A stretch of DNA of 41,528 nucleotides from a virus: positions 1-41,528 of the IMG/VR virus record IMGVR_UViG_3300006927_000020; one strand, 5' to 3'. The notes under the pieces are model-generated. The model did not search any database. It saw nothing but the letters and a program-made list of their open reading frames with translations, and was not told where the DNA came from. A program made the position numbers and the translations under genes. Below are positions 22,261 to 41,528 of this stretch, one piece after another (positions within the stretch are counted from its first letter, which is position 1; every line of letters starts with the position of its first letter).

Positions 22261-24690
22261 ATGAAAAAGTTGGAAGACGTTTTAGCATCTGTTGTCTTAT
22301 TAGCAGAAGATACAGGTATCGAACATACAAAAGCTGCAATAGAAAATGTATTGCAACAATCCCACCAAAATCTTGAGATCATTGTCGCCGCATTATTTGA
22401 CGATACTGATCTCAAGAAACTCTATAACAATAATTGGAAAGTAAAATTTCAAGATGCTGAAGAAGGTGTAGAATTTATTGCTAAAGTAATAGATGAATGC
22501 ACAGGCGATGCAATTTTTTATAAGACAGTAACTAATGTATTATGGTTCCCAAATCATATCAAGGCTCACTTGGAAGATTTTAGAACACATGCATGGAAGA
22601 ATAAATGGTCATTGTCACATATAGAAATTAGAGATGAGGATAATCCTGATCATCCGTTAAATACAATTGGGTATAGAATAGAAAATCCACCTCAATTGGA
22701 AAAAATAATATTGGATGAGATTGTTCATCTTCCCGATGTAACACCAGACTGGCCATCATGTGTTGTAAAGGATGATGACGATAATATTAATTTTATCCCA
22801 GGAAATGCATTGGTAGAATGGCATAAAGCAGAACTTAAAGGAACTATTCCAAAGGAAATTACTGTTGTACAATGGATAAAGCAGGGTGGTGAACAAGTAG
22901 CTGATGAAGACCTTGCAACAAAAATTGGTTTACCTGCAGCGACAGATGTCAAGGAAGAAAATATATTCAATCAAGAAACAGGTGAAGTTGAAATCAAGAG
23001 AAAAATTCCTACAATAGTTGGTAATGTATTTCTTGATGAACAATATAATAATGGTATAAGAAATGTTGTTAATGAAACAAAGGATATAGAAACAATTGGT
23101 ATCAAGAGAACAATGGGTATGGGTGATATTGTTCTTGTAGAACCAGTTATTAGAGCATTAAAAAGTAAATATCCGAGTGCCAAGATAACATTATATACAG
23201 CTAAACCAGCTATTGTAGATTATTTTGAAGCTAAACCAGATGATATAGTTACATTAGAAGATAATCAATTAATACAGGATTTTCTTGCTACAACAGATAA
23301 TGATGTGAAATATGACTTAGATCTTGCTTATGAATCTAGAACAGGCAGATCATTTATTGATTCTTACTTTGATACAATTGGAATGAAGGTTAATCATAAA
23401 GATAAAATTCCTAAATTGGTAGGTAGCAATCATAATGTTAAAGATTCAGTTAAAGTACCCGATTCTAAATATGTAGTTGTAGTTGGTGATGGTTCTGGTT
23501 GGATAGGAAAAACATGGAATCCTGCAGAATATACTAAAGTTGTTCAATATTTACTAGATAAGGGATATGAGGTTGTAGAACCAGGTATTGAAAATTATTC
23601 TGGACTTACTGATACCAAATGGAATAGTGCAGATTTCCCAACGTTGGTTAAATTATTGCAATTCTGTGATTTGTTTGTAGGTGGAGATAATGGGCCAATG
23701 CATATTGCTTCAGCGTTCAATAGAAAAAGAGTGTTGATTGCTGGATCAGCATTGCCATACTTTACAAACCCAAATAGAGAAGGTGTTTATTATGTACAGG
23801 ATAATTCATTAGATTGCCTTGGTTGCAAGCATAAACAATTCTTTGGAACTAATGGGCAACAAATTACATTTATGCCTCAATGTGATAATGATGAACAAGG
23901 TATATGTATGCAAACATTAAAAGCTGAACATGTAATTGGTGGCATAGAAAAGTTAATGATGAATAATCCTATTTCAATGATTGACAAGAAAACACCACTT
24001 AACTTTATGTTAAATATTCCTGGTTGGTCATATTATAAGGATGAGAAATTAGATCTTATTCAGAGAGAAAGATTAACAGAACATCCTGATCAAGATAAGG
24101 ATATCTCGACAGAATATGCTGATAGATGGGAACAGGTATATAAGGATCATGCACTTCCATTGGCAAAAGAATTGAAGAAATATACTGATAGTAAACGTCT
24201 TCTTGATGTTGGATGTAATATGGGTATATTTGTTAAAGCGGCAATTGATGAAGGGTTTGATGCTTATGGAATTGACATTAATAAGAAAAGTGTAGAACGT
24301 GCACATGAAGTATTTCCAGAATTAAAGGAAAAAATTATTGATGATCCTGATACTGATGTATGTTGTAGATTAGGTTCAGAATCACATATAAAACTATTTG
24401 ATATAATTACAGCTAATCAAGTATTAGAACATATGAGTGATCCTATAGATTTTATGGAATCAATAAAAGCTATGCTTGATGACAATGGTGTATTATTAAT
24501 TGGATCTCCATGTTGGGAAGAAGAAGGTGCACAAGAGTTATGGCATAAGTGGGGATCGTTTGGAACTGGCGAGCATACATGGATTCCTACAGAAAAATCA
24601 TTTGCAGAAATATGTAAGAAGGCCGGTTTTGATTATAAGTTAATTGAAGATACAAAGAATGGCCTTCTCTCATTATGTTACAAAATATGA
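22261..24690 (+). CDS. Three-domain GT2-like / GT9 heptosyltransferase / methyltransferase fusion
   Basis: 809 residues. Residues about 5-200 look like a degenerate GT-A (GT2) domain (AAIENVLQQSHQNLEIIVA, no clear DxD). Residues about 276-565 are a GT9 heptosyltransferase-like domain: RTMGMGDIVLVEPVIRALK, then FVGGDNGPMHIASAFN near 473, and a Cys set (CLGC...CDNDEQGIC) typical of the GT9 end. Residues about 640-809 are a class I methyltransferase of the Methyltransf_23 type (LLDVGCNMGIF, ITANQVLEHM, a GEHTWIPTEKSF tail). This suggests transfer of a heptose-like sugar followed by methylation in one protein. The next small gene overlaps by ATGA. Confidence 0.85.
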   Translation: MKKLEDVLASVVLLAEDTGIEHTKAAIENVLQQSHQNLEIIVAALFDDTDLKKLYNNNWKVKFQDAEEGVEFIAKVIDECTGDAIFYKTVTNVLWFPNHIKAHLEDFRTHAWKNKWSLSHIEIRDEDNPDHPLNTIGYRIENPPQLEKIILDEIVHLPDVTPDWPSCVVKDDDDNINFIPGNALVEWHKAELKGTIPKEITVVQWIKQGGEQVADEDLATKIGLPAATDVKEENIFNQETGEVEIKRKIPTIVGNVFLDEQYNNGIRNVVNETKDIETIGIKRTMGMGDIVLVEPVIRALKSKYPSAKITLYTAKPAIVDYFEAKPDDIVTLEDNQLIQDFLATTDNDVKYDLDLAYESRTGRSFIDSYFDTIGMKVNHKDKIPKLVGSNHNVKDSVKVPDSKYVVVVGDGSGWIGKTWNPAEYTKVVQYLLDKGYEVVEPGIENYSGLTDTKWNSADFPTLVKLLQFCDLFVGGDNGPMHIASAFNRKRVLIAGSALPYFTNPNREGVYYVQDNSLDCLGCKHKQFFGTNGQQITFMPQCDNDEQGICMQTLKAEHVIGGIEKLMMNNPISMIDKKTPLNFMLNIPGWSYYKDEKLDLIQRERLTEHPDQDKDISTEYADRWEQVYKDHALPLAKELKKYTDSKRLLDVGCNMGIFVKAAIDEGFDAYGIDINKKSVERAHEVFPELKEKIIDDPDTDVCCRLGSESHIKLFDIITANQVLEHMSDPIDFMESIKAMLDDNGVLLIGSPCWEEEGAQELWHKWGSFGTGEHTWIPTEKSFAEICKKAGFDYKLIEDTKNGLLSLCYKI

Positions 24691-24782
24691 GGACATTGAT
24701 AGAAGAATTTAAAGAAGCTTATAATAAAAAAGCAGATATTTTTGTTATTCTTTATGACGAAGATATTGAGAAAGAAGGGTAA
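24687..24782 (+). CDS. Small 31-residue protein between glycan genes
   Basis: ATG at 24687 overlaps the previous stop (ATGA) and the frame ends at TAA 24780-24782, two bases before the next GTG. The product starts MRTLIEEFKEAYNKK and is acidic. The tight ATGA coupling and exact fit between two genes support translation. The N-terminus fits the leader-like pattern seen elsewhere in the window. It may only serve to couple translation to the next gene. Confidence 0.5.
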   Translation: MRTLIEEFKEAYNKKADIFVILYDEDIEKEG

Positions 24783-24784
24783 AA

Positions 24785-25249
24785 GTGGACACCATAGGAA
24801 ATTTAATTGATCGTCTCTGTATTTTAGAAAAAAGAAAAGAAATTTTAGAAGAAGATAGAGCTATTAATCATGAAGTTATTGATGAGCTTGAAGAACAGAG
24901 AGGTTGGATTGTTGCCGATATGGGTAGAATTACAAAAGCAATAAGAAAAGGCAAACATCCTGGCATACTTAAGAAAAATAAGATATATGATCCAGATATA
25001 AAAGAAGAAGAATGCAATAATCTTATTAATCTAATTTTCAAGTTAGACTTAGTAACAAGAAAATTATGGGAACTAGAAGACAAAAGAAGGGATTCGGATA
25101 ATATAACTCCAGATGATCGTCTTGAAGCATGTGATCAAGTCTCTAAATATAATAAACAACGTAATAATTTAATTGATAGAATAGATGAGGTATACGTTGC
25201 ATCATTAAAGAAAGCAAAAGTAAATGAAGATACTTATTTCGGGTGCTAA
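24785..25249 (+). CDS. DUF4254-like helical protein
   Basis: 154 residues from a GTG start (AGAAGGG ribosome site upstream). Almost entirely helical, with IGNLIDRLCILEKRKEIL at the start and VTRKLWELEDKRRDS plus YNKQRNNLIDRIDEVY at the end, which resembles DUF4254 proteins found near bacterial surface-glycan glycosyltransferases. There are probable coiled coils. The last 26 bases overlap the RmlD-like gene. The function of the family is not known to me; its placement supports a role with the glycan enzymes. The family call is by resemblance only. Confidence 0.7.
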   Translation: MDTIGNLIDRLCILEKRKEILEEDRAINHEVIDELEEQRGWIVADMGRITKAIRKGKHPGILKKNKIYDPDIKEEECNNLINLIFKLDLVTRKLWELEDKRRDSDNITPDDRLEACDQVSKYNKQRNNLIDRIDEVYVASLKKAKVNEDTYFGC

Positions 25250-26093
25250 AGGTCAATTAGTAAAAGAAATTATTGACTTAGCTACTCAACAAGAAAAAAT
25301 TGAGGTTCATCCGTATTCAAGGGATGTTTGGGATATAACTAACTATGATAAGAATAGAGAAATATTTGAGTTAGTGGAACCTGATGTGTATATTCATGGA
25401 GCTAGTATCCATCATGTAGCAGATATACATAAAGATTCTAGATTGGCAGCAAAAGTAAATATCGCAGCTACTCATAATTTGATAAAGCTCTGTAATGAGA
25501 TGGATAACTGTAAATTCATAAATTTCTCCACAGATTATATATTCAGTGAAAGATCTTTTGAGCCACTTACAACAAAAACAGCATTTGATGAGAGTTCAGA
25601 AAGAACACCTTTCAATTTATATGGTGTGATGAAGCATGCTATAGAACAAATGTTAGAAAATGATTGTAATAAGTGGATGAATATTAGAGTATGTGGATTA
25701 TTTGGTAAGTATGGATCAAGGGCAAAGAATGATTCTAATTTTCCTTTGATGATTTTAGATAAGATAAAAAATAAAGAAGAAATTAAAGTAGTTGATGATC
25801 AAATTATAACAGTAGGATATTGCAAAGATATAGCACACAATATTATAACGATACTTAATGTGGCAAGTGGCCACTATCATATGATGAATGAAGGTATATT
25901 GACGTGGTATGATTTAGCCAGCTTTATTTGTAATATAAAAGGTTATAATAACATAAGTAAAGTAAGTTCAACAGAATTCTATTCAGATTTTAAAAGAGCT
26001 CAAACGACAGCATTAGAAAATAAAAGATTACCAAAATTTCCAGATTGGAGAGACGCAATAGTAAGATTTATGAAAGAAATTGGAGAAATTTAA
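25224..26093 (+). CDS. RmlD-like NAD(P)-dependent sugar-nucleotide reductase
   Basis: 289 residues, the usual size of dTDP-4-dehydrorhamnose reductase. The nucleotide-binding motif is ILISGAKGQLVKEI (GxxGQL type typical of RmlD). A strand NFSTDYIFSER supplies the catalytic Thr/Asp region, and YGVMK gives the YxxxK pair near residue 131. Late motifs such as GHYHMMNEGILTWYDLA fit RmlD (here NEG). It would reduce a 4-keto sugar nucleotide. No RmlA or RmlB is visible in the window, so the substrate may come from the host. It starts inside the DUF4254-like gene; AAAGAAAG upstream acts as the ribosome site. Confidence 0.85.
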   Translation: MKILISGAKGQLVKEIIDLATQQEKIEVHPYSRDVWDITNYDKNREIFELVEPDVYIHGASIHHVADIHKDSRLAAKVNIAATHNLIKLCNEMDNCKFINFSTDYIFSERSFEPLTTKTAFDESSERTPFNLYGVMKHAIEQMLENDCNKWMNIRVCGLFGKYGSRAKNDSNFPLMILDKIKNKEEIKVVDDQIITVGYCKDIAHNIITILNVASGHYHMMNEGILTWYDLASFICNIKGYNNISKVSSTEFYSDFKRAQTTALENKRLPKFPDWRDAIVRFMKEIGEI

Positions 26094-26401: not shown

Positions 26402-26446
26402 ATGAGACTTATTTCAGAAATAACAAAGGAATGGAGATTATTGTGA
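26402..26446 (+). CDS. 14-residue leader peptide coupled to the RmlC-like gene
   Basis: AGGAGAAAGTATA precedes an ATG that opens a 14-codon frame, MRLISEITKEWRLL, ending TGA at 26444-26446. The TGA overlaps the GTG at 26443 (GTGA), and the GGAG ribosome site of the next gene is inside the leader. The peptide resembles the N-termini of other proteins in the window (for example MLLNEI, MKLRQLF). It may be a coupling leader, or what is left of a gene whose body was lost. Confidence 0.45.
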   Translation: MRLISEITKEWRLL

Positions 26447-26997
26447 GATTTCATATGGACGATCGCGGTATAAGATACTGTGACATATTTCCAGAAATAG
26501 GAAAAGGTGATATTAATATTACAATAATTGAAAGTGGAGCTGTAGCACTCTGGCACCGTCATGAAAATCAAACAGATTATCAGTTTGTAATTAAAGGATC
26601 ATTAAAAATTGGTATAGCTAATCTGCCATCTCGTTACCACTGCGACGATGGTTCAGATAGAATGGAAAAAGATTGGCAAGAAAAATATTATCATATTCAT
26701 AAAGATTCATATAATGCTAGTCTAGCAAGGTTGCGCAGCGCACCGAATAATAAATATATAAAATATTCTAAAATATTTGAAAAAACAGATGCAAGATGTG
26801 ATTGGCATTATTTATCAGAACGTAATGCAAATCAGGGCCCTTTATTTATTCCTGCAGGCCTGTGGCATGGATGTTATAACTATACAAACGAACCAGCAAT
26901 TCTTTGTTATCATATAACAAATAAATGGGATGGAACTGATGAAGAACGCTGCGATCCAGATATATTAGGCTGGAAATACGAACGGATCGTTAAATAA
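26443..26997 (+). CDS. RmlC-like cupin, putative sugar-nucleotide 3,5-epimerase
   Basis: About 184 residues from GTG at 26443; an ATG at 26431 in the same frame would give 188, but GGAG at 26433-26436 is six bases before the GTG, so GTG is preferred. The fold is a cupin: residues HRHENQTDYQFVIKG contain the paired His, later FIPAGLWHGCYNY and the RmlC-like end (NKWDGTDEERCDPDILGW). The start RFHMDDRGIRYCD is like the RmlC start (DDRG). It would epimerise a 4-keto-6-deoxy sugar nucleotide before the RmlD-like reductase. The next gene shares its last base. Confidence 0.8.
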   Translation: MRFHMDDRGIRYCDIFPEIGKGDINITIIESGAVALWHRHENQTDYQFVIKGSLKIGIANLPSRYHCDDGSDRMEKDWQEKYYHIHKDSYNASLARLRSAPNNKYIKYSKIFEKTDARCDWHYLSERNANQGPLFIPAGLWHGCYNYTNEPAILCYHITNKWDGTDEERCDPDILGWKYERIVK

Positions 26998-28208
26998 TGA
27001 AAATTGGTGAAGGAAGATGGCATGCTGGTTTTGGAACCGACATTAAATATGATTATAAGGAAGATCTAAAGAAAATGAAGGAAAGAAACGATCGATATAA
27101 AGCTAACAAAGTCCGAACGTTATTTGATGATTTTGAAGATAAGAAAGAAGTGCATCTTATTACTGGCGGTCTTGGCCATGTTGGTTCTTATATTGTTGAA
27201 TATCTAGCAAATACTCGCCGTCATTGTACTATCGTTGTTGTTGACAATTTTTATAATGGTAAAATTGAAAATCTTAATGATTCAAGGCCAATTACATCGG
27301 CAAAAGGAATACAAATTATAGTTAAAAAATGTGATATAAAAACATTTTCAGATTTGGAACATGTGTTTGAAGAGTTCAAGCCTGATTTTGTATATCATCA
27401 AGCATCAATGTTAACATTAGATTCTAAACAAGATAGAATAAAGGCTGTTGAAGTTAATATACTTGGTAGTGCAAATGTATTTGAATGTTGCATAAAATTT
27501 AATATAAAGAAACTAGTATATGCATCATCAGCATCAGTCTTTGGTGATCCTCAATATATTCCTGTAAATGAAGAACATCCAAAACAATGTAAATTACTTT
27601 ATGGAGCTACAAAAAATGCTACAGAAGAATTGGCAAAATCATGGTGTGATGAAGAAGGTTTGAAATTTGTTGGCCTTAGATATTTTAATGTTTATGGTCC
27701 TAGACAATCAACTTTAAATGTATATACTCAAATAGTACCAAAGTGGATTAATGCATTTATTGATGGTAAATCAATTACAGTTTATGGTGATGGTTCTCAA
27801 ACAATGGATTTAATTTATGGAAAAGATATTGGTAGATTGAATGTTCTAGCGATGCGACATGAAAATTTGTTTAGAAATATAAATGATAGGCCTAAAGGTT
27901 TGCCTCGTGGACATCATCGGCCGACGAGCGTTCGTGCATTTGATGGATTTATTAATATAGGTTCTGGAATTCAAACATCTGTTATGGAACTTATGAGGGC
28001 TATGACAAAAGAATTAGAGAAACAAGGTATTGATACATCATTATCAAAAATAGATTATATAGAACATGATCCAAATTTAGTTAAGAGAAGGCAGTGTGAT
28101 ATAACACGTCAAACAGAATTTTTGAATCCAAGAAACTTGATAACTGTAGATGAAGGAATGAGATATACTATCAAGGAGATTCTTCGTGAACGAGCTATAC
28201 TTAAATAA
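26997..28208 (+). CDS. Extended-SDR NAD-dependent sugar-nucleotide epimerase
   Basis: 403 residues with a 40-residue N-terminal extension before the Rossmann motif TGGLGHVGSYIVEYL. Catalytic parts: ASSASVFGDPQ and YGATK (YxxxK), then GLRYFNVYGPRQ and VYGDGSQTMDLIYGKDIG, all typical of UDP-glucose 4-epimerase-like enzymes. The C-terminal INIGSGIQTSVMELMRAM fits. It is not a 4,6-dehydratase, as the TDE motif is lacking. A short GC-rich stretch (24/40 at 27901-27940) encodes PRGHHRPTSVRAF, which looks like an insertion between the usual strands. It overlaps the next gene by 23 nt. Confidence 0.88.
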   Translation: MKIGEGRWHAGFGTDIKYDYKEDLKKMKERNDRYKANKVRTLFDDFEDKKEVHLITGGLGHVGSYIVEYLANTRRHCTIVVVDNFYNGKIENLNDSRPITSAKGIQIIVKKCDIKTFSDLEHVFEEFKPDFVYHQASMLTLDSKQDRIKAVEVNILGSANVFECCIKFNIKKLVYASSASVFGDPQYIPVNEEHPKQCKLLYGATKNATEELAKSWCDEEGLKFVGLRYFNVYGPRQSTLNVYTQIVPKWINAFIDGKSITVYGDGSQTMDLIYGKDIGRLNVLAMRHENLFRNINDRPKGLPRGHHRPTSVRAFDGFINIGSGIQTSVMELMRAMTKELEKQGIDTSLSKIDYIEHDPNLVKRRQCDITRQTEFLNPRNLITVDEGMRYTIKEILRERAILK

Positions 28209-28656
28209 TCTTACAAGGATATTAGATATTGTAAGATCAAAATATCTACGTAATAAATCTACGAGAAAAATTGTTTTTACAAGTGGATGTTTTGATATAT
28301 TGCACCGAGGTCATATAGAATTATTTAAGGCAGCTAAAAAAACAGATACATTTTTAATAGTTGGTGTAAATTCTGATAGAACAATCAAAAAATTAAAAGG
28401 GCATACTAGGCCTTATATTAATCAGAGTGACCGTGTAGCAATATTAGAAGCAATAAAATATATTGACTATGTGCAAATATTTGATACTATGTCTGTTTTA
28501 CCTCTTATAGAATTAGTAAAACCTGATATATTAATAAAAGGTAGAGATTATACAAATAAAAAAGATATAGTTGGTTCGAAATTTGTAGAATCATATGGTG
28601 GTAAAGTTGTTATTTACCCTTTACATAAAAAGTGTTTCCATAATAGATTATTTTAA
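28186..28656 (+). CDS. HldE-C/RfaE2-like heptose-1-phosphate nucleotidyltransferase
   Basis: 156 residues from a GTG that follows AAGGAG by seven bases. The cytidylyltransferase fold shows TSGCFDILHRGHIELFKAAK (HxGH), VGVNSDRTIKKLKG, RPYINQSDRVAILEAI and LIKGRDYTNKKDIVG, then SYGGKVVIYPL, matching the adenylyltransferase domain of HldE. It would turn heptose-1-phosphate plus NTP into a nucleotide-heptose. The end (KKCFHNRLF) differs from the usual STT.II tail. It overlaps the epimerase by 23 nt and ends at the sulfotransferase ATG. It works with GmhA and HddA encoded 7-8 kb downstream. Confidence 0.87.
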   Translation: MNELYLNNLTRILDIVRSKYLRNKSTRKIVFTSGCFDILHRGHIELFKAAKKTDTFLIVGVNSDRTIKKLKGHTRPYINQSDRVAILEAIKYIDYVQIFDTMSVLPLIELVKPDILIKGRDYTNKKDIVGSKFVESYGGKVVIYPLHKKCFHNRLF

Positions 28657-29226
28657 ATGGCAAAAATGTTTCGTAAAAAAGTATATGGTATAGGTTTACC
28701 AAGGACAGGTTCTACATCTTTAAGCAAAGCATTAGAAATTTTAGGATATGAAGGTATCCATAAATGTATATTACACCCAGATAGTAAAGAAATAAATGCA
28801 AAGGTAAATACACCTTTTATTTGCACGAGCGTAGGCGGTCGCAACGCGGTCCGCTCCTCAGATACGTATAAATCATACAGCATTGATAATAGATATTGGA
28901 AAAATTATCAAGATATATATAAATGGGAACCAGATGCATTTTTTATTTTGACAACTCGTGATGCAACAAGTTGGAATAAATCTACAGAAAAATTTAATGT
29001 TGATTGTTTTGCAACTGTAAAAAGAAACAGAACATGTAAACTAAATAAAATTCCATACATATCTGATTATCAAAACGAGGTAGATGTATTTTTTTATAAT
29101 AATCCTTCAAATTATTTAAATTTCGATATATTTCAAGGAGATGGATGGAAAGAACTTTGTAAATTCCTCCATGAGGATGTTCCTCGATGGAAATATTTCC
29201 CTAAGGTATTAAAAGAAAATGAGTAA
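28657..29226 (+). CDS. Sulfotransferase-like protein
   Basis: 189 residues. The 5'-phosphosulfate loop GIGLPRTGSTSLSKALEIL is near residues 11-29, and a 3'-phosphate motif is in FILTTRDATSWNKSTEKF (Arg and Ser conserved), as in PAPS-dependent sulfotransferases of the Sulfotransfer_4 type. It is short for the family (usually 200-300), so it may be a minimal form. It could put sulfate on a sugar, using host PAPS. It contains a 40-base GC-rich patch at 28821-28860 (27/40) in otherwise AT-rich DNA. The next ATG lies inside its last codons. Confidence 0.75.
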   Translation: MAKMFRKKVYGIGLPRTGSTSLSKALEILGYEGIHKCILHPDSKEINAKVNTPFICTSVGGRNAVRSSDTYKSYSIDNRYWKNYQDIYKWEPDAFFILTTRDATSWNKSTEKFNVDCFATVKRNRTCKLNKIPYISDYQNEVDVFFYNNPSNYLNFDIFQGDGWKELCKFLHEDVPRWKYFPKVLKENE

Positions 29227-30202
29227 TACAAGTTATTTTCATGTTCTCTCATTATGTGGTTTTGGCGACATACTTTCTCACCTAACTAGAATTAAGGCAG
29301 TGAAGAAGAAATATCCAGAACACATAGTGAAATTTTGGTTAGGAGGTTTTGGCAAAGCTCCTCAATTTTCAAAAGAACAAATCGAACGCGAAGGTTATGA
29401 GGCTATGATTGTAAAAAATCTAAATTTCCATAACCAACTTCCTGCCATTAGAAAACTATTCTTAGATCAAGTAGTTCAAGAAAATGATATCTTTGAAGAT
29501 TGGTCATTTTGTGAAGAGATCTTTCAGAATAAAGAACCATCTTTTATGCAATACGATATGGAGTTTCCATACAATTATAGTATAGGTAGAGAAAAAACAG
29601 AAGATGAAAAATGGTATATTGATTTTACTAAAGATGATAGTAGAGCATTAGTAGCTATACACCCATTAACAAAATCAGGTAACGCTGAAGGTTTTGAACA
29701 TGATCTTCAAGCAGGCAGATTTTGGGATAAAGATAAATGGGTAGAACTATGTGTAAAATTAATACAGTCAAATAGAATACCAGCATTCATTGGTATGGGC
29801 GATGAAGATTGGGGAGTTATGGATGAGCTTGATAAAATGGGCTATAAGGCATTCTATCAAAATTATATGGGTTTCACAATAGAAGAACAAGTAAGATTTC
29901 TTCAAGATGGATGTAGAGGATGTATTGCTACAAATTCATGGGATTGGGAAATATCATCAAGAGCTGGTTTACCAACGATATGCTTTTATACTAAGAATCA
30001 TTTCTTTATTAAAATTCATACACTACAAGGGCCATCTGAATTTTGGGATAATTGTTATATAGAGACAGACAATAAGGTAACAGCAGATTCCATATTTGAT
30101 AAATTTATTTATATGGATGAAAACAAAAAACGACCCCAAGTAAAATATTCAGCATGTATGATTACACTGGATGATGAAGAGGATTTAGAAAATGAAGTAT
30201 AG
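29219..30202 (+). CDS. GT9-like glycosyltransferase with a GT2-derived tail
   Basis: 327 residues. GT-B fold: N-terminal CGFGDILSHLTRIKAVKKKYP (the GDxLhxLpxlralk motif of GT9), then AIHPLTKSGNAEGFEH, RIPAFIGMGDEDWGVM, and GCRGCIATNSWDWEISSRAG, the sugar-nucleotide loop with Glu. It is probably an ADP-heptose or related glycosyltransferase. The last 19 residues (KYSACMITLDDEEDLENEV) match the start of the next protein (MKYSICMITLNDIECIE) at 10 of 16 aligned positions, so the gene end looks like a remnant of a fused GT2 domain. It overlaps the next gene by 11 nt. Confidence 0.8.
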   Translation: MSNTSYFHVLSLCGFGDILSHLTRIKAVKKKYPEHIVKFWLGGFGKAPQFSKEQIEREGYEAMIVKNLNFHNQLPAIRKLFLDQVVQENDIFEDWSFCEEIFQNKEPSFMQYDMEFPYNYSIGREKTEDEKWYIDFTKDDSRALVAIHPLTKSGNAEGFEHDLQAGRFWDKDKWVELCVKLIQSNRIPAFIGMGDEDWGVMDELDKMGYKAFYQNYMGFTIEEQVRFLQDGCRGCIATNSWDWEISSRAGLPTICFYTKNHFFIKIHTLQGPSEFWDNCYIETDNKVTADSIFDKFIYMDENKKRPQVKYSACMITLDDEEDLENEV

Positions 30203-30866
30203 TATATGTATGATAACTCTAAATGATATTGAATGCATAGAAAAAACATTACAAAACTTATGCCCATTCATAAATGATGAATTTATTATAATTGATGGAG
30301 GTTCTTCAGATGGCACTTTAGAGTTAATAGAAAAATATGCAAACAATTATAATATTATGTTATTCTCAGAATCTTGGAATGATGATTTTTCATATCAGAA
30401 AAATTTAGCTATTGAAAAAGCAAAAAATAAATGGATATTATGGGTAGATGCAGATGAAACTTATGAATATGTTTTTCTTTGTCAACTTCCTTGGTATATA
30501 TGGGATGCAGAAAGAAATGGTGTAGATTGTATCTACGTACCAAGAATCAATACAATAGAAGGATTACCAGATGAAGAGTTACAGAAATACACTCAGGAAC
30601 AAGGTTGGCAAATGTCAGGATTCCGTTGGATCAATTATCCTGATACCCAACAACGAATTTTCAAGTCAAACTGCAAATTCGTCGGTCGTTCTCATGAACG
30701 AATTGTTGGAGCATCTAGAGAAAGTTCTCTTGTTGGGCAACACATACTTCACCCCAAAACAAAAGACCGTCAACAACGTGGCCTTGATAGAGAAAAACAC
30801 CTTTATGAACATGAAGCACAAAATGTGTTAGATAGAATTATGGAAGGAGAAGAAAAATATGGCTAG
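30192..30866 (+). CDS. GT2 family glycosyltransferase
   Basis: 224 residues with a GT-A fold: MKYSICMITLNDIECIEKTL, FIIIDGGSSDGTLELIEKY, SYQKNLAIEKAKNKWI, LWVDADETYEY (DxD motif near residue 92), and RIFKSNCKFVGRSHERI later. This is the pattern of the WaaE/KdtX-like GT2 group that acts on inner-core LPS. It overlaps the GT9-like gene upstream (11 nt) and the HAD gene downstream (8 nt), so all three are translated in a chain. No membrane segments, so it works with soluble or membrane-facing acceptors. Confidence 0.88.
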   Translation: MKYSICMITLNDIECIEKTLQNLCPFINDEFIIIDGGSSDGTLELIEKYANNYNIMLFSESWNDDFSYQKNLAIEKAKNKWILWVDADETYEYVFLCQLPWYIWDAERNGVDCIYVPRINTIEGLPDEELQKYTQEQGWQMSGFRWINYPDTQQRIFKSNCKFVGRSHERIVGASRESSLVGQHILHPKTKDRQQRGLDREKHLYEHEAQNVLDRIMEGEEKYG

Positions 30867-33313: not shown

Positions 33314-33854
33314 TGAAATTAAAACAAAAGGAAATATACCTAGACAAATACCAAAATTTTTAATTGATGATGTTGTTCTTGTAGATGAAAAAGATAGTGT
33401 TTATATAGTTTTAGATAGAACTTGGAATATAATAAGTTCAAATATTAGGTTTTGGACATATACATTACGTGATTTACGAAATACTGATGCATTAAAATTA
33501 GTAAGAAAAGAAAAAGAATTAGTTTTGAAGAAAAGACCGGTTGATAATTTGTATGAAGTTGAACAGAAGCAGGCAAATTTGCATAAACAATCTCCCGGAT
33601 ACATCTTACCAGGTAAGTGTACAATAGATGTACCGTTTGATAATAAAGGTGTAGATCATCCAAAACATTATAATTCACATCCAACAGGTATTGAATGCAT
33701 TGATATTGTAAGGCATTATAATTTCAATATTGGTAATGTAATAAAATATGTTTGGAGAGCTGGATTAAAAGATGGTGAAAATAATTTGAAGGATTTAGAA
33801 AAAGCACTCTGGTATTTACAGGATGAAATAAAATGCACAAAGACAAAGAAATAA
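33306..33854 (+). CDS. DUF3310 phage protein
   Basis: 182 residues. The C-terminal 70 residues are DUF3310: DHPKHYNSHPTGIECIDIVR, GNVIKYVWRAGLKDGENNLKDLEKA, common in phages, usually next to nucleotide or replication genes. The N-terminal 100 residues are a separate beta-rich region that looks like a small KOW/SH3-like domain (DDVVLVDEKDSVYIVLDRTW). The biochemical function of DUF3310 is not known to me. Its presence among glycosyltransferase genes is an oddity. Confidence 0.88.
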   Translation: MGNEIKTKGNIPRQIPKFLIDDVVLVDEKDSVYIVLDRTWNIISSNIRFWTYTLRDLRNTDALKLVRKEKELVLKKRPVDNLYEVEQKQANLHKQSPGYILPGKCTIDVPFDNKGVDHPKHYNSHPTGIECIDIVRHYNFNIGNVIKYVWRAGLKDGENNLKDLEKALWYLQDEIKCTKTKK

Positions 33855-33902: not shown

Positions 33903-34490
33903 TTGGTTAAAAATAAATTAAAGGTGTTCGTGACTGGAGCAGCCGGCTTCATCGGATCACATCTTTGTAAAAGGCTTGTAAATGATGGCCACGACGTAAT
34001 TGGTATTGATAATATGTCAGTAGGATTCTATGATAATATAGTTTCTCTTGAAAATGAAGAACGATTTGATTTCTGGGAAGATGACATTAGAAACTATTTC
34101 AGAGTTGATAAGGATATAGATGTTATTTATCATCTTGCAGCTAGAGGAGAAACATACTGGTGTCAAGAAAATCCGCTTGAAGCCATTGATGTAAATATAA
34201 ATGGAACAGTAGCAATGTTAGAATTTGCAAAAGCATGTAAGGTAAATCATTTTATTTTTGCTGATACATCGGCAGAATATGATAATATACCTATTCAAAC
34301 TACAAATTCAATAACTAATTATCCGTCCAGAGAGTTTGATGAATGCTCACATAAGTGGGGCGTTTGGATGCCACGCGGATTTTATTCAATAACAAAAAAT
34401 GCTGCATCACAATTTGTTAGGCGTTATGGCAATGAATATGGATTTGGAACTACATTGATTAGACCATTTAATGTTTATGACCATCAATGA
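33903..34490 (+). CDS. N-terminal part of a split sugar-nucleotide epimerase/dehydratase
   Basis: 195 residues from a TTG start after AAAGGA (33887-33892). Rossmann motif KVFVTGAAGFIGSHLCKRL, then IDVIYHLAARGETYWCQEN, FADTSAEYDNI and YSITKNAASQFVRR (YxxxK). It ends at TLIRPFNVYDHQ with TGA at 34488-34490. The normal continuation of the family is in the -1 frame from 34487 (next entry). A single-base loss in CAATGA (CAAATGA expected) would explain the split. Either two coupled subunits via ATGA, a broken gene, or an assembly error. Confidence 0.82.
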   Translation: MVKNKLKVFVTGAAGFIGSHLCKRLVNDGHDVIGIDNMSVGFYDNIVSLENEERFDFWEDDIRNYFRVDKDIDVIYHLAARGETYWCQENPLEAIDVNINGTVAMLEFAKACKVNHFIFADTSAEYDNIPIQTTNSITNYPSREFDECSHKWGVWMPRGFYSITKNAASQFVRRYGNEYGFGTTLIRPFNVYDHQ

Positions 34491-34912
34491 ATCTTATTAG
34501 AGATATTCCTCCAGTTGTCGGCAGTTTTACAAAGTCAATTTTAGAAGGTAGTGCTCCATATATTTTTGGTACTGGTGAAAAAAGAAGAGATTTTATTTTT
34601 ATTAATGATGCAATAGAATTACTTAGTAGATGTTTAACTCATAGGAATAAAATTGATACACTTACAGTTAATATGGGAACTGGTGAAAATTATTCTATCT
34701 ATGAAGTATATGAACAAGTATGTAAAGAAATATTAGGTATAGATGAAAATTGGCCAGAAATAGAATATAGAGAAGATAAAGATTATGAAGCTGAGATAAC
34801 TTTGGCAGATATTTCTATAGCGAGAAGAAATCTTGATTGGGAACCTAGAATTGATTTTGAAAACGGTGTTAAGAGAACAGTGAATGGTATTAGATTACAA
34901 TTAGGATATTAA
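34487..34912 (+). CDS. C-terminal part of the split sugar-nucleotide epimerase/dehydratase
   Basis: 141 residues starting MNLIRDIPPVVGSFTKSILEG, the usual substrate-binding half of an extended SDR, with PYIFGTGEKRRDFIFINDAIELL, VNMGTGENYSIYEVYEQV and LADISIARRNLDWEP. Its ATG overlaps the stop of the N-terminal half (ATGA), so translation restart is likely. It lacks the Rossmann motif and cannot be an enzyme alone. It ends one base before the next ATG. Confidence 0.82.
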   Translation: MNLIRDIPPVVGSFTKSILEGSAPYIFGTGEKRRDFIFINDAIELLSRCLTHRNKIDTLTVNMGTGENYSIYEVYEQVCKEILGIDENWPEIEYREDKDYEAEITLADISIARRNLDWEPRIDFENGVKRTVNGIRLQLGY

Positions 34913-34913
34913 T

Positions 34914-35231
34914 ATGTTACAAGCTTCAAGAAATAAAATAGATTATGAAAAATTTTATGTAGTAAAAAGATCAGAAATTGATGCAATTAGAAAAGTTTTG
35001 CAAGGCCTTGAGATGTATGCCGAAATGATTTCACCTATGGATATTATGACTAGATCAGAACAGATTGCTGGTTTATTAAATGAACTTCAATTAGGTGAAC
35101 AAACTGAAGCTGGTTTATTTCCAAGAGAATTATCAAAAGGTGAAACTTTATATCTAATTAAATCAAGAGGTATGGATCTTTTAACAGAAGAAGAATTTAC
35201 AGAATTTGTTACAGCAATGGATAAAGAATGA
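34914..35231 (+). CDS. Hypothetical protein
   Basis: 105 residues, helical and acidic, with SEIDAIRKVLQGLEMYAEM and SKGETLYLIKSRGMDLLTEEEF. I do not recognise it. The ATG is two bases after the previous stop, and the end overlaps the HddA-like kinase by ATGA, so it belongs to the same operon. No cysteines, no membrane segments. Possibly a small regulator or partner of the sugar enzymes. Confidence 0.72.
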   Translation: MLQASRNKIDYEKFYVVKRSEIDAIRKVLQGLEMYAEMISPMDIMTRSEQIAGLLNELQLGEQTEAGLFPRELSKGETLYLIKSRGMDLLTEEEFTEFVTAMDKE

Positions 35232-36235
35232 TAATTACAAAATCACCATTAAGGATAGGTTTTGCTGGTGGAGGTAGTGATTTACCTGCATTTTGTAGTG
35301 AAAATAGTGGTGCATGTATAAATGCAGCAATAAATAAATATGTATATGTTCTTGTACGTAAAAGATATGATGATATGATTTATTTAAAATATTCAGAAAA
35401 TGAAGTGGTTAGATATGTTGATGAGATTCAGCATGATTTTATTAGAGAAGCACTACTTTTTTGTGATATAGATTTTGGTATAGAGATTATAAACTGGGCA
35501 GATATTCCTACAAAAGGAACCGGCCTGGGATCATCATCTAGTTTTTTGGTTGGATTGCTTAATGCATTATGGACATTAAAAGGTCATACATATAATAAAC
35601 ATGAATTAGCTGAACAGGCTTGCGAAATAGAAATTAACAGGTGTAAAAAGAATATTGGATATCAAGATCAATTTATTGCAGCATATGGTGGTTTGAAATT
35701 TATGCAATTCTATAAAAATCCTGAGGATACGTATGTTACATCATTAGCATATGAAGATGCTGAACTCGATAGATTATCAAGAAACATAATGGCATTTTAT
35801 ACGGGAATTACAAGAGATGCAAATGATATTCTTACAGAACAAAGTGAAGATTTAAAAACAGATTCCAATGCAATAGAATTAATGAAAGCGAATGTAGATA
35901 TAGCAAATAGATCTTATGTAAAATTGCAGAATCATATACATCCGTCTCTTGGGCATGCTATGGCAGAAAATTGGAATATTAAGAAAAAATTTAAAGGTAT
36001 TACAAACCCTGAAATAGATAAATTAGTTGATGGATGTATGAAAGCTGGTGCAGTAGGTTGTAAAATAACTGGAGCTGGTGGAGGAGGATTCTTAATTGCC
36101 TATGTTCATTCAGGTAACCAAGAAAATATAAGAGAAGGAATGCAAAGATATCATCCTGAAGTAAAGGAAATGCCTATAAAAATAGATAAGTATGGAACAA
36201 GAGTATTGATGAATGTCGAGCAGTATTTATGGTGA
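35228..36235 (+). CDS. hddA: GHMP kinase, D-glycero-D-manno-heptose 7-phosphate kinase (HddA-like)
   Basis: 335 residues, the usual HddA length. N-terminal SPLRIGFAGGGSDLPAFC is the HddA/FKP-type start, the ATP-binding loop is GTGLGSSSSFLVGLLNAL near residues 97-114, and motif 3 is ITGAGGGGFLIAYV near the C-terminus. IGYQDQFIAAYGG is also diagnostic of the group. It would phosphorylate C1 of heptose 7-phosphate made by GmhA, whose gene follows 45 nt downstream. Fucose/other GHMP kinases are less likely given the GmhA neighbour. Confidence 0.9.
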   Translation: MIITKSPLRIGFAGGGSDLPAFCSENSGACINAAINKYVYVLVRKRYDDMIYLKYSENEVVRYVDEIQHDFIREALLFCDIDFGIEIINWADIPTKGTGLGSSSSFLVGLLNALWTLKGHTYNKHELAEQACEIEINRCKKNIGYQDQFIAAYGGLKFMQFYKNPEDTYVTSLAYEDAELDRLSRNIMAFYTGITRDANDILTEQSEDLKTDSNAIELMKANVDIANRSYVKLQNHIHPSLGHAMAENWNIKKKFKGITNPEIDKLVDGCMKAGAVGCKITGAGGGGFLIAYVHSGNQENIREGMQRYHPEVKEMPIKIDKYGTRVLMNVEQYLW

Positions 36236-36280: not shown

Positions 36281-36841
36281 ATGAAGATGTACAGTGTAGA
36301 CGACTTTTTAAATAACACTTATTATCTCACAAAAAAGGTACCGTTAAAAGATGTTTTTAAAATTAAAGATTATATTCTGGAATCAAATCGTATTTTTCTT
36401 GTGGGGAATGGCGGATCAGCTGCCATATGCGATCATATTGCTAATGATTTAATGAAACGCTGTCATAGGCCGGCATTAGGATTAACTTCACCAGCATTGA
36501 CAACATGTTTAGCAAATGATTATGGCTTTGAAAATATGTTTTCTAATTTTTTAGAATTACATAAAATATCTGGTAAGGAAATTGATTCTTATCCAGATTT
36601 GCTGATAGCAATAAGTTCATCAGGGAAATCAGAAGATATTATACATGCTATAGATACAGCTAGGTCTGCTGGAGCAAATATTATTGGGATTGCGGGATTT
36701 GATGGATTTCCTGAATTGCAAAAACAATATTTAGCTGTAGATATACATTTAGATTCTTATAATTATGGTGAAGTAGAATTAGCAACAGAATTGATTTTAC
36801 ATGCAATTATAGAGGATATTATAGATGACAGAACAAACTAA
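36281..36841 (+). CDS. gmhA: Sedoheptulose-7-phosphate isomerase (GmhA-like)
   Basis: 186 residues (E. coli 192). SIS domain with RIFLVGNGGSAAICDHIAND near residues 37-56, LTTCLANDYGFENMFS, ISSSGKSEDIIHAIDTARSA, and VELATELILHAIIEDI at the end. It makes D-glycero-D-manno-heptose 7-phosphate from sedoheptulose 7-phosphate, the first step of heptose-nucleotide synthesis. GGAG lies before the ATG. It follows hddA and overlaps the next gene by 17 nt. Confidence 0.92.
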   Translation: MKMYSVDDFLNNTYYLTKKVPLKDVFKIKDYILESNRIFLVGNGGSAAICDHIANDLMKRCHRPALGLTSPALTTCLANDYGFENMFSNFLELHKISGKEIDSYPDLLIAISSSGKSEDIIHAIDTARSAGANIIGIAGFDGFPELQKQYLAVDIHLDSYNYGEVELATELILHAIIEDIIDDRTN

Positions 36842-37145
36842 AAGTGAAATAGAAAAAAATAAGATTTTGAGTGGTATTAAGCAAATTCATGAACCTATAG
36901 ATACTATAGATACTAAAGGTGCTGTAATATGGGTCTGCCCATGTTGTAACCATAAAGTATATGAGGGTGATGATGATGATGATTCGGGAAAACCAGTTGG
37001 AATTGCGATCGCAGAATTACCAATAATTATATGTGTAAAATGTAATGCACTTAGTGTTTCCGATTTAACTATAGAGGCATTAACAACAGCAATGAAACAA
37101 GCATCAAGTGGTATTATAGTTCCTCCTTCGGGCGCAAGAATTTAG
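36825..37145 (+). CDS. Small zinc-ribbon protein
   Basis: 106 residues with a zinc-ribbon pattern: VWVCPCC near residue 37-43 (CPCCNHKVYEG) and IICVKCNALS near residue 68, two CxxC pairs with an acidic loop between them (DDDDDSG). The rest is flexible. I do not recognise the family. It starts inside gmhA and its stop overlaps the next GTG. It could bind nucleic acid or act as an adaptor. Confidence 0.75.
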   Translation: MTEQTKSEIEKNKILSGIKQIHEPIDTIDTKGAVIWVCPCCNHKVYEGDDDDDSGKPVGIAIAELPIIICVKCNALSVSDLTIEALTTAMKQASSGIIVPPSGARI

Positions 37146-37921
37146 TGAATCCTGAAGATATCCATATAGTCCTCTTAGGGTTTGATAGAGAATTAGATTA
37201 TCGTATTAACCTAGAGATACTAAGATATAATTATGGTTTTAGTGATAAGTTATGGATAACTACAATTCATAATGGTGATAGAGATAAACTTCCTTCAGGA
37301 TTAGGTGAAAATAATTTTATCTATATGAATGAAAATAGAGGTCCAGTTGGTGGGGTTATAGATAGTATTAATCGAGCAGGCCAATTTGCGGTAAGTGGTT
37401 ATCGACCTATTGTTGTATTCATGAATTTCGATGCGTGGTTCATTACTGAACATGGTTTTACTTGTGCCATTGAAGAATTTATGAAATCAGGCAAAGAATT
37501 TTCAGCAGCAATAGACAATAATCACTTACCGACACCTGATTGTATGATTTTTAAGAAAGATTATTTAAAAAAAATATTACCAATACAAGAAAAAATATGC
37601 TCATTTAGAAGAAACATTTCTGATCTTGTAAAAAAATATAAACCTACAGAGCTTGGGTTTGAGAATGTAGAAGAATATTTATATTATACAATAACAAATA
37701 AACCTAAAGATCTTCTTGTTGAAATGACGCATACAAAGATAGATCAATATCTATTAAAAACAATTTGGCATGATATGGGAAGAGATGGATTGCCAAGATT
37801 AGAATGGACAGAAAGATTAACATTTCTTCATAATCATGACTACAATATGAAAAAAGAATTATTGAAGAAGCATAATATAACAAATGGCAATGCTATACAA
37901 CAGTTTATTGGAGGTGCATAA
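37145..37921 (+). CDS. Putative GT-A glycosyltransferase
   Basis: 258 residues from a GTG overlapping the previous TAG. The N-terminal strand DIHIVLLGFDREL, a helix, KLWITTIHNGDR, ENRGPVGGVIDSINRA and VVFMNFDAWFITEHGF (acidic F-D-A-W where DxD is expected) look like a GT-A fold. The rest is helical with FLHNHDYNMKKELLKKH at the end. I do not recognise a precise family. It lies after the heptose genes. A glycosyltransferase is the best reading; confidence in function is moderate. Confidence 0.65.
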   Translation: MNPEDIHIVLLGFDRELDYRINLEILRYNYGFSDKLWITTIHNGDRDKLPSGLGENNFIYMNENRGPVGGVIDSINRAGQFAVSGYRPIVVFMNFDAWFITEHGFTCAIEEFMKSGKEFSAAIDNNHLPTPDCMIFKKDYLKKILPIQEKICSFRRNISDLVKKYKPTELGFENVEEYLYYTITNKPKDLLVEMTHTKIDQYLLKTIWHDMGRDGLPRLEWTERLTFLHNHDYNMKKELLKKHNITNGNAIQQFIGGA

Positions 37922-38754: not shown

Positions 38755-38766
38755 GTAGGAGAATCG

Positions 38767-39690
38767 ATGTCAGAAAGATTAGCAGCATATAAGTTTTATT
38801 TGGAATTAAAATTGGATCGTAAGAAGCTTGGAGCTGTATCTGGCGAAGGGTTTCAGTTTACTTCCATGCAGGACCAAGATGGTATTATACAAGAAATATT
38901 CAAAAAGATAGGAACTACTAATAAGACATTCATAGAATTTGGTGCTGGTGATGGGCTTCAAAATAATACTTTGGCTCTTCTTACACTTTATGGTTGGAAG
39001 GGTTTGTGGTTAGAAGCCGTCGAAGGTATGGCTTCGATGATAGAAGATAGAAAAAAATATTATAATAATGCACATAAGTTGACATCAGTATTTGCAACAT
39101 TGAATAAAGATAATACAGATGAATTGTTATTATCTTATGAATGTCCAGAGCCTGATCTTCTTTCTATAGATACAGATTGGAATGATTATTATTTATGGGA
39201 AGCTCTTGAAAATGTGAAGCCAAGAGTTATTGTTATTGAATATAATTCGCATATTCCAAGAAATGTGGATATAGTAGTTCCATATGGTCATAATACATGT
39301 TCATGGAATGGATCATCATTTTATGGCGCAAGTATAGATGCTCTTATAAGGATGGGTAAAAACAAAGGGTATACATTAGTAGGAACAAATATTGGTGGCT
39401 CTGATGCTTTCTTTATAAGAAATGATTGTTTACCAAATAATCCACATACAAATTCTGAAACAAATGAGATAATATATAGGTCTCCTTGGAATGTAGTTTA
39501 TGAACACCCATTATTTGATTTATGTTATCAAGTTGGTCATAAACCACATGCCTGGTGTAATGAAGAATTTGTAGAATATATTGAAAATAGGAAAAAAGAG
39601 AAAGCACAAAAAGAAGAATTAGAAGCAGGAATTAAAATAAAGAATGCCGGCCCAGCCGCGTTAACAGAACTGAAAGGTCCTCACGTATGA
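38767..39690 (+). CDS. FkbM-like SAM-dependent methyltransferase
   Basis: 307 residues, first gene after the terminator (good AGGAG site). SAM motif NKTFIEFGAGDGLQNNTLAL near residues 56-75 and the following GWKGLWLEAVEG; later LLSIDTDWNDYYLWEAL and VIVIEYNSH match a group of glycan-locus methyltransferases. The C-terminal tail is Lys/Glu/Ala-rich. It probably methylates a sugar of the phage-built glycan; the exact target is unknown. It overlaps the next gene by 4 nt. Confidence 0.8.
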   Translation: MSERLAAYKFYLELKLDRKKLGAVSGEGFQFTSMQDQDGIIQEIFKKIGTTNKTFIEFGAGDGLQNNTLALLTLYGWKGLWLEAVEGMASMIEDRKKYYNNAHKLTSVFATLNKDNTDELLLSYECPEPDLLSIDTDWNDYYLWEALENVKPRVIVIEYNSHIPRNVDIVVPYGHNTCSWNGSSFYGASIDALIRMGKNKGYTLVGTNIGGSDAFFIRNDCLPNNPHTNSETNEIIYRSPWNVVYEHPLFDLCYQVGHKPHAWCNEEFVEYIENRKKEKAQKEELEAGIKIKNAGPAALTELKGPHV

Positions 39691-39992
39691 AGTTTTTGAA
39701 TATTAAGTTTACGAATGGCGAAGTATATCAAATTGGTCTACGTCATATAGCAGAAATTAGAGCTAAATATTATGCTGATAAGGATGGATTTGATAATGAA
39801 GAATATTTAAAAGTTTGGAAGTATGAATTTGCAATTATAATGGAAAATGATTCTGAAGCAATGAATTGGGCAAAGGATAATATGGATTGGAAAGATGTAG
39901 AGCGTTATGCCAAAAAAATAAATAATAAGGGAGGAATTAATTATGAAGAAGAGTGGCGTAATTCTAAAACTGAGATCGTAGATGAGAAGTAA
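39687..39992 (+). CDS. Hypothetical protein
   Basis: 101 residues, a small alpha/beta protein (MKFLNIKFTNGEVYQIG, then HIAEIRAKYYADKDG, and a tryptophan-rich helix NWAKDNMDWKDVERYAKK). Small phage proteins of this pattern are common and of unknown function. The ATGA overlap with the methyltransferase suggests coupling. A 94-nt AT-rich gap follows. Confidence 0.72.
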   Translation: MKFLNIKFTNGEVYQIGLRHIAEIRAKYYADKDGFDNEEYLKVWKYEFAIIMENDSEAMNWAKDNMDWKDVERYAKKINNKGGINYEEEWRNSKTEIVDEK

Positions 39993-40086
39993 TTTTAGCT
40001 TATAATATTAGGTCAAACTGATATTTATAAGTGATTATTATCTATTTTAAAATGATCTATATTATAGGAATATAAATGAGGTAAGA

Positions 40087-40650
40087 ATGAATATACATGT
40101 TGAATTAGGTTGTGGAAATAACCTTCGTCCTGAAGGTGAAGGTTGGGAAGATATCGGGGTAGATATTATAGAAGGTGATAATATTAAAATTTGTAATTTA
40201 GGTTTTGAAAATCTTCCTTTTGATGATGACTCCATAGATATGTTCCAAGCAATAGATGTTCTTGAACATATTCCCAAATGTATTTGGGCTCCCATAGGAG
40301 ATACTCTTGACGGTCATAAACAGAATTTCATACGTCATAATCCTATGATAGATCTTATGAATGAAATATACCGTTGTATTAAAAATAATGGAGTTTTTAA
40401 AGTAGAAGTCCCATTTTCAGATTGGGCAATAGACCGTGATCCGACTCATGTAAATAAATTTGCAAGGGATTGGTGGCATTATTATAAAAAGGATGATAAT
40501 CTTTACTATGATCAAGGTTTAATTAAATGTAATTTTAAAGTAACAACTGATGAGTTAGTCTATGAAAATAATACATTACGTACTCATCTTATAGCAAATA
40601 AATCTGGAGGCTTTCCAATAACAAAAACTAATAGGAAACCTTTGATTTGA
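40087..40650 (+). CDS. SAM-dependent methyltransferase (Methyltransf_11-like)
   Basis: 187 residues: VELGCGNNLRPEGEGW (SAM motif I), GVDIIEGD, LPFDDDSIDMFQAIDVLEHI, LMNEIYRCIKNNGVFKVEVPF, typical class I methyltransferase order. After these there is a W-rich part (FARDWWHYYKKDD). An alternative upstream ATG at 40076 stops after three codons. It lies before the last glycosyltransferase. Likely modifies a sugar or a precursor; the substrate is unknown. Confidence 0.82.
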   Translation: MNIHVELGCGNNLRPEGEGWEDIGVDIIEGDNIKICNLGFENLPFDDDSIDMFQAIDVLEHIPKCIWAPIGDTLDGHKQNFIRHNPMIDLMNEIYRCIKNNGVFKVEVPFSDWAIDRDPTHVNKFARDWWHYYKKDDNLYYDQGLIKCNFKVTTDELVYENNTLRTHLIANKSGGFPITKTNRKPLI

Positions 40651-40681
40651 AATATAAGAAAATTAAGAAAGTTGTGGTAAA

Positions 40682-41528
40682 ATGAAAATTTTAGTTATTC
40701 AAAGTCCACACTATGATTTTAATGCTGCCACGTTAATACAAGGGCTACATAATTGTATCGAAAACAGGGCCCCACACGAGCTTATGTGTGCAGAAAGAAG
40801 CAACTATGCAGAGCTTGAGGGTTTTTATAGTCATTATGAGTCCAATGAAAATGTGATCAAAAAGTTTGCTATATCCGCAGATCTCATCATTTTATGTTCG
40901 AACAATAATGTTAAAGAATACCTTGCTTTTGATACAGGTAGAGATGATATAATATATATGGATGGTGAAGATACTCATCCATATAAAAAGGATCCAAATA
41001 ATTTTGCTCTGTATTTCAAAAGGGAAATGAGATTAAATCTAGATCATCCAAATAATGTTTGGCCATTTCCATTTGCATGTGAAGATAGATATTTTTTACC
41101 ATTTCGTTTTGATGATAAGAAATTTTCAGTAACATGCATGTTTGGGCCACATGATGATACTAAACCCTGGCGCAGTGAAATTCAAACATGTTTAGAGGAA
41201 GCAAAAATTCCTGATTCTGTTATAGGATCATTTTATGGTGGTGATCAGGCAGTAACAATAGATACTGGTGGTAGAGACAATTCACATTACTATGATATTC
41301 TAACGAGAAGTAAAATATCGGTTGATGCACATGGTGCATATGAATGTAATTCTGCTAGATATTGGGAATCTTTAGCTAACGGATGTGTTTTACTTACAAG
41401 AAGAAATCTTATAGAAATGCTATATCCTTATGTAGATACAGAAGATATGTATGAATTTGAAACAAATTCTGAATTATTAGCTCTTATAGATTTATTACTA
41501 AATGATGATCAACGCCGAACAAAAATGG
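40682..41528 (+). CDS. Glycosyltransferase, paralogue of 31245-32282 (truncated by the window end)
   Basis: An open frame of 282 codons that runs off the right edge. It starts MKILVIQSPHYDFNAATLIQ, the same N-terminus as the 31245 protein, and contains CMFGPHDDTKPWR and ISVDAHGAYECNSARYWE, also shared. About 60 residues may be missing at the end. The first 150 bases are GC-richer (28/60 at 40741-40800) than the remainder. Probably a GT-B glycosyltransferase acting on the same or a related glycan. Confidence 0.82.
   Translation, partial: MKILVIQSPHYDFNAATLIQGLHNCIENRAPHELMCAERSNYAELEGFYSHYESNENVIKKFAISADLIILCSNNNVKEYLAFDTGRDDIIYMDGEDTHPYKKDPNNFALYFKREMRLNLDHPNNVWPFPFACEDRYFLPFRFDDKKFSVTCMFGPHDDTKPWRSEIQTCLEEAKIPDSVIGSFYGGDQAVTIDTGGRDNSHYYDILTRSKISVDAHGAYECNSARYWESLANGCVLLTRRNLIEMLYPYVDTEDMYEFETNSELLALIDLLLNDDQRRTKM

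Follow-up and report, generated by a model that had tools for sequence, protein, structure and literature searches.

A glycan gene cluster of a probable T4-like phage combines an HddA-like kinase with an HldE-C-like nucleotidyltransferase in a putative hybrid route to activated heptose

Among the closest described systems to the locus reported here are two bacterial routes to activated heptose. The guanosine diphosphate (GDP)-alpha-heptose route uses the GHMP kinase HddA and the nucleotidyltransferase HddC, and the adenosine diphosphate (ADP)-beta-heptose route consists of GmhA, HldE, GmhB, and HldD. We analyzed the IMG/VR virus record IMGVR_UViG_3300006927_000020, a linear sequence of 41,528 bp with ~31% GC, the whole of which is called the window below. 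Its glycan cluster, a run of co-directional genes at 22,261-41,528, includes four heptose-type enzymes. The window resembles the GDP-heptose route in its kinase and isomerase families and in their adjacency (HddA-like GHMP kinase at 35228, GmhA-like isomerase at 36281), but it has an HldE-C-type nucleotidyltransferase in place of HddC and an EcbF-type HAD phosphatase in place of GmhB. It shares the nucleotidyltransferase family (TIGR02199) with the ADP-heptose route, but has a GHMP kinase in place of the PfkB-type HldE-N/HldA. No match to PF00483 (NTP_transferase, HddC-type) was found in the record, itself a fragment, and the window contains no PfkB-like open reading frame (ORF).

Lipopolysaccharide (LPS)-like clusters and heptose enzymes have both been published for phages. 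With its contiguous glycosyltransferase, short-chain dehydrogenase/reductase (SDR), and nucleotide-sugar genes inside a phage genome, the window cluster is of the P-SSM2 type. The LPS clusters of the T4-like cyanophages P-SSM2, S-SSM7, S-SM2, and P-TIM68 share with it the nucleotidyltransferase (T4-GC 304; 43-57% identity), the EcbF-type HAD (T4-GC 306), cupin, epimerases, and glycosyltransferases. They differ in having a PfkB-type kinase and, in the stretches compared, no GmhA, whereas the window has GHMP and GmhA. In Synechococcus phage SynMITS9220M01, the genes for an HddA-like kinase, GmhA, and a HAD-nucleotidyltransferase fusion are consecutive and lead into one for a heptose-6-epimerase-like SDR, but the identity is 28-45% and an NTP_transferase-type enzyme is also encoded elsewhere in its cluster. 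Caulobacter phage Cr30 has adjacent hddA and gmhA genes (36-41% identity to the window), but HldE-C was not found in the stretch compared. The passages of PMC11573728 on viral nucleoside diphosphate (NDP)-heptose enzymes (work of Tang et al.) do not mention the pairing of a GHMP kinase with HldE-C, and no description of it was found in the open-access literature, which does not prove its absence there. What seems new here is the wiring, that is, an HddA-type kinase and isomerase together with an HldE-type nucleotidyltransferase.

The four enzymes are all encoded on the + strand, as are all likely genes of the window. The GmhA-like SIS isomerase (36281-36841) belongs to the HddA-linked subtype, matches TIGR00441 with 71 bits (cut-off 209) and phosphoheptose isomerases in the PDB, and has an active-site pattern in common with HddA-linked bacterial isomerases. 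It carries Asp at the position of a catalytic Glu; loss of the catalytic residue was considered and rejected, since isomerases beside bacterial HddA-like kinases have Asp there too. The HddA/WcbL-like GHMP kinase (35228-36235) matches NF049969 (142 bits, cut-off 600), PDB entries 4usm, 4n3o, and 3k85, and phrog_34407. The HAD protein (30859-31248; TIGR01689, 40.7 bits; phrog_1238) is a candidate heptose bisphosphate 7-phosphatase whose best model is EcbF-BcbF, not the HisB-N/GmhB type. The HldE-C-like heptose-1-phosphate nucleotidyltransferase (28186-28656; TIGR02199, 150.8 bits, cut-off 181.5) has an intact HxGH motif. The two GT9 proteins are an 809-residue protein (22261-24690), with an N-terminal region of unknown kind, a GT9 domain (Pfam, 44.6 bits), and a C-terminal methyltransferase domain (Methyltransf_23, 84.2 bits), and a GT9-fold glycosyltransferase at 29219-30202. 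The latter has no Pfam match, but the nine best PDB matches of its AlphaFold model (predicted local distance difference test score, pLDDT, 73) in Foldseek were all GT9 chains (including Veillonella GT9, WaaF, and WaaC). The AlphaFold model of the 809-residue protein was unusable (pLDDT 46).

We consider it probable that this is a soluble, cytoplasmic glycan-assembly cluster of a myovirus and that in this phage group the four enzymes form a single route, one that mixes elements of the GDP-alpha and ADP-beta routes of bacteria. The isomerase would convert sedoheptulose 7-phosphate to heptose 7-phosphate, the kinase would phosphorylate C1, the HAD phosphatase would dephosphorylate C7, and the nucleotidyltransferase would form the nucleotide-activated heptose. 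The two GT9 enzymes would consume it, and the other transferases, epimerases, methyltransferases, and sulfotransferase would elaborate the glycan. Family-level identity, synteny, gene fusions, and near-exclusive kinase replacement are observed, whereas the substrates, anomer, nucleotide, and acceptor are inferred.

Kinase neighborhoods were compared at 80 viral and 80 bacterial loci among the matches listed, gathered by similarity to the window's genes, with neighbors scored by profiles built here and trained mainly on viral sequences. The IMG/VR records used are all fragments, and some are possibly cellular contigs. An HldE-C-like gene lay within 3.5 kb of the HddA-like kinase at 44 of the 80 viral loci and at none of the 80 bacterial loci, whereas an HddC-type NTP_transferase lay within that distance at 7 viral and 46 bacterial loci; no kinase in either set had both. 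After collapse of the kinases at 80% identity, the HldE-C pairing was found in 27/58 viral vs 0/72 bacterial loci (Fisher p = 4e-12). An independent control of 120 genomes from one bacterial phylum contained 27 HddA-like genes in 22 genomes. HldE-C was detected in 20 of these 22, so the profile recognizes the bacterial form despite its mainly viral training, and it was never within 40 kb of any of the 27 HddA-like genes on the same contig.

Among viral loci found through GmhA, the nucleotidyltransferase was accompanied by a GHMP kinase in 21, a PfkB kinase in 27, both in one, and neither in three. This near-exclusive replacement points to the GHMP kinase as the supplier of the nucleotidyltransferase. 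Gene fusions were also found: 16 viral ORFs join HAD and nucleotidyltransferase, typically directly 3' of GHMP and GmhA, and three join GmhA and nucleotidyltransferase. Adjacency, fusions, and kinase replacement together support the assignment of the four enzymes to one pathway in phages. In the kinase tree (FastTree, local supports only), the window kinase fell in a fully supported clade of eight viral sequences, apart from a viral clade of 26 rows in which the GHMP-HldE-C pairing is frequent. This separation makes it probable that the pairing had more than one origin or spread repeatedly.

Synteny points in the same direction. Two viral contigs, G010 (33 kb) and G009 (32 kb), retain the block in the same general order at ~35-58% protein identity. 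Common to them are the gene at 21816, the 809-residue protein, DUF4254, RmlD-like, cupin, SDR1, GT9, GT2, GT-B, SDR2, GHMP, and GmhA genes. The nucleotidyltransferase is in the block of G010 and absent from the match set of G009, and in both contigs HAD adjoins cupin, unlike in the window. Retention at such divergence implies selection on the block. Megablast of the cluster against phage records gave no match, and single-sequence scans of IMG/VR with the nucleotidyltransferase and the kinase returned only a sister contig, IMGVR_UViG_3300006754_007973, which is 99.9% identical from 20,986 rightwards.

Several points weigh against the proposed route. First, the anomers conflict. The alpha anomer is apparently the one bound by the GHMP heptokinase WcbL (PMC4691232), and the HddA product is the alpha-1,7-bisphosphate (PMC10680097), whereas HldE-type nucleotidyltransferases are described, in passages of PMC11573728, for beta-heptose 1-phosphate. 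The phage combination therefore needs either an unusual kinase or an unusual nucleotidyltransferase. The possible complete route from the four enzymes proposed in a preliminary description of this DNA is thus not supported as worded, in part because it combines steps of two textbook routes whose anomeric configurations are opposite, a point that the description does not raise. We put forward only tentatively that activated heptose is made in phages by a third route, probably put together on more than one occasion, in which a GHMP (alpha-type) kinase feeds an HldE-C-type nucleotidyltransferase, often via an EcbF-type phosphatase. If this is true, either the nucleotidyltransferase takes the alpha-1-phosphate or the GHMP kinase makes the beta one, and the product could be an NDP-heptose not known from bacteria.

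Second, the window nucleotidyltransferase, with family and HxGH motif present, lacks the C-terminal S-T-T loop. The S-T-T loop contacts the nucleotide in this nucleotidyltransferase superfamily. The C-terminal end reads PLHKKCFHNRLF in the window and EGVSTTNIVEKI in relatives such as G010, whose enzyme is intact; the sister contig is exactly like the window. Among 180 nucleotidyltransferase ORFs with a recognizable HxGH-type motif, these two are the only full-length C-termini without an S-T-T-like loop. A few others have variants (A-S-S, S-L-T, S-S-L), and one or two end early or elsewhere. A frameshift was considered and rejected: the other frame reads KSVSIIDYF, still without T-T, so deletion or decay fits better. 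With the loop lost, the last step is probably impaired in the window phage or left to the host. The four steps as one route thus hold up as a linkage in phages; as a complete pathway they are doubtful for the window phage, whereas for its relatives the case is well founded.

The GHMP-linked viral nucleotidyltransferases mostly have a loop of the form H-x-[YFW]-S-[ST]-[ST]-x-L-[RK], not G-x-S-T-T, which may hint at a different specificity; the window enzyme is nearer to the HldE-C type than to this form. Passages of PMC11573728 give the GRSTT version as a hallmark of promiscuous heptose nucleotidyltransferases, but no viral nucleotidyltransferase in our sample has it.

Third, HldE-C was not found on the 40-84 kb contigs of G001-G004, the relatives closest to the window by kinase; the last step is therefore not shared by all members even of this lineage. 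PF01467 matches in G001, G002, and G004 were rejected: they lie within open frames of 684-698 residues, and that of G002 looks by eye like part of an unrelated ligase/adenylyltransferase-type phage protein. Finally, none of the four heptose-type enzymes reaches its curated equivalog cut-off, so they are distant members of their families, not textbook copies, and the sugar may instead be some other ketose-phosphate product.

In the visible cluster we recognized no flippase, polymerase, ligase, or initiating transferase. Nor does the cluster encode a multi-pass membrane protein; two small proteins alone reach a transmembrane-like score. Because export machinery is absent from the visible cluster, the acceptor is probably one accessible from the cytoplasm, either virion proteins or the inner-leaflet LPS core; a new O-antigen or capsule fits less well. 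The evidence here does not separate LPS from virion glycosylation, and superinfection exclusion, receptor masking, and virion glycosylation, the roles proposed in the preliminary description, are hypothetical. That the enzymes glycosylate the phage's own tail or capsid proteins instead of host LPS is a reading we regard as rather doubtful. The lack of export machinery agrees with it, as does the position of the cluster directly 3' of virion structural genes, including that of a LamG-domain protein (16132-17298), but GT9 enzymes of known structure act on the LPS core, also at the cytoplasmic face.

For P-SSM2, such genes have been suggested to modify the surface of the host as a protection from other phages (PMC2984593), and a cyanophage comparison of 2010 left open whether the LPS genes are functional or 'stuffer DNA' (PMC3037559). 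With this precedent, the cluster could be ordinary LPS-type cargo that changes the host LPS core and blocks superinfection; the heptose supply would then be completed by host enzymes, the phage nucleotidyltransferase would be decaying, and the hybrid wiring would have no particular meaning. The motif loss in the window and the G001-G004 contigs, which keep kinase and isomerase without the nucleotidyltransferase, are consistent with such cargo. We think it unlikely, as many phages repeat this exclusive pairing, fusions included, and the G010 nucleotidyltransferase is intact. Equally improbable is that the enzymes activate a sugar other than D-glycero-D-manno-heptose, be it a further heptose, an octose, or a pentose. 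The below-cut-off scores of all four enzymes would allow it, and GHMP, SIS, and HAD families serve other sugars too, but for three of the four the best NCBIfam models and the matching solved structures are heptose enzymes, and GT9 heptosyltransferase folds accompany the set.

Some T4-like contigs (L208, L214, L253, and similar ones) have a compact cassette beside the T4-type RNase H gene, composed of an HldE-C-like gene, sometimes a GmhB-like HAD or SDR, one phrog_2170 glycosyltransferase, GHMP, and GmhA. The single glycosyltransferase suggests one defined acceptor. Although this minimal cassette could recall T4, where glucose is put on phage DNA, glycosylation of phage DNA by the nucleotide-sugar is very improbable for the window, whose cluster has many glycosyltransferases and comes after structural genes and in which no base-modification gene was seen, none having been searched for.

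The hybrid-route proposal bears on annotation as well. Passages of PMC11573728 state that the role of viral heptose enzymes is unsolved; the fusions, near-exclusive kinase replacement, and synteny suggest that an entire pathway is under selection and name its four genes. The family phrog_1238/T4-GC 306 (e.g., PSSM2_311), annotated as 'phosphoheptose isomerase', is homologous to the EcbF-type HAD phosphatase and not to GmhA, and should be corrected to HAD phosphatase. The phage GHMP and GmhA families, in contrast, are listed as of unknown function.

The remaining genes of the cluster are as follows. The conserved block begins one gene before 22,261 with a protein of unknown function (21816-22247; 54-58% identity at the same position in G010 and G009), followed by the 809-residue protein (37% identity over its full length in both). 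Next come a syntenic DUF4254 protein (24785-25249; Pfam, 36 bits), an RmlD-like reductase of the SDR family (25224-26093; RmlD_sub_bind, 166 bits; TIGR01214, 160 bits, cut-off 224), and a cupin protein (26431-26997) matching Cupin_2 (28 bits) and Cupin_1 weakly, with no match to the RmlC model (dTDP_sugar_isom family) or in NCBIfam. SDR1, a GalE-type epimerase/dehydratase (26997-28208; Epimerase, 165 bits), precedes the nucleotidyltransferase, and a sulfotransferase (28657-29226; Sulfotransfer_4, 75 bits) without a counterpart in the relatives compared follows it. The GT9-like ORF at 29219-30202 ends in a remnant of a GT2 start, after which comes the full GT2 gene (30192-30866; Pfam, 64.9 bits); in G010, GT9, GT2, and GT1 are fused as one protein. 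Beyond the HAD gene are two GT-B glycosyltransferases (31245-32282, Glyco_trans_1_2, 50.9 bits; 32279-33313, Glycos_transf_1, 42.5 bits). A DUF3310 protein (33306-33854) lies in the middle of the cluster. A one-base indel near 34478 divides the epimerase SDR2 (33903-34912) into two ORFs (33903-34490 and 34487-34912); in the sister contig it is a single intact ORF of 336 residues.

Downstream of the kinase and isomerase are a conserved protein that may be a glycosyltransferase (37145-37921; 39-51% identity in G010, G009, and G002; no Pfam match), a protein resembling FkbM-type methyltransferases by eye (38767-39690; 40% identity in G002; no Pfam match), a methyltransferase-like protein (40087-40650; weak Methyltransf_11/23 matches; 51% identity in G002), and a GT-B glycosyltransferase cut by the window end (40682-41528; Glyco_trans_1_2, 29.5 bits). 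Thus four or five glycosyltransferases accompany the GT9 pair (30192, 31245, 32279, 40682-end, and possibly 37145), in line with the about five of the preliminary description. That description also named the four heptose-type genes, two GT9 domains, a sulfotransferase, and methyltransferases, all of which were recovered by the matches above. Its RmlC/RmlD-like pair is reduced to the RmlD-like member, and its epimerases are present with SDR2 counted as one broken gene, not two ORFs.

The left part of the window encodes baseplate wedge proteins (phrog_261, phrog_219), and its gp6-like protein is closest to those of Microcystis phage Mel-JY01 and Flavobacterium phages 'immuto' (30-35% identity). 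These matches make a deep-branching T4-like myovirus the probable source. Neither a tRNA nor an Rfam match was found across the window. An HNH/homing-endonuclease-like gene (9958-10662) adjoins that of a 730-residue protein at 10663, and a 471-residue protein (17363-18778) matches only the end of DNA polymerase A with its C-terminal third. An NfuA-like Fe-S carrier with A-type and NifU domains (21050-21631) is phage-borne and lies immediately 5' of the cluster. The proteins at window 19511-20980 and L002 25-1911 differ, although the two phages are 99.9% identical right of 20,986: an N-terminal stretch is common (window 19751-19818 identical) and the remainder is unrelated, which looks like a swapped C-terminal module, the window copy reading like an HNH nuclease.

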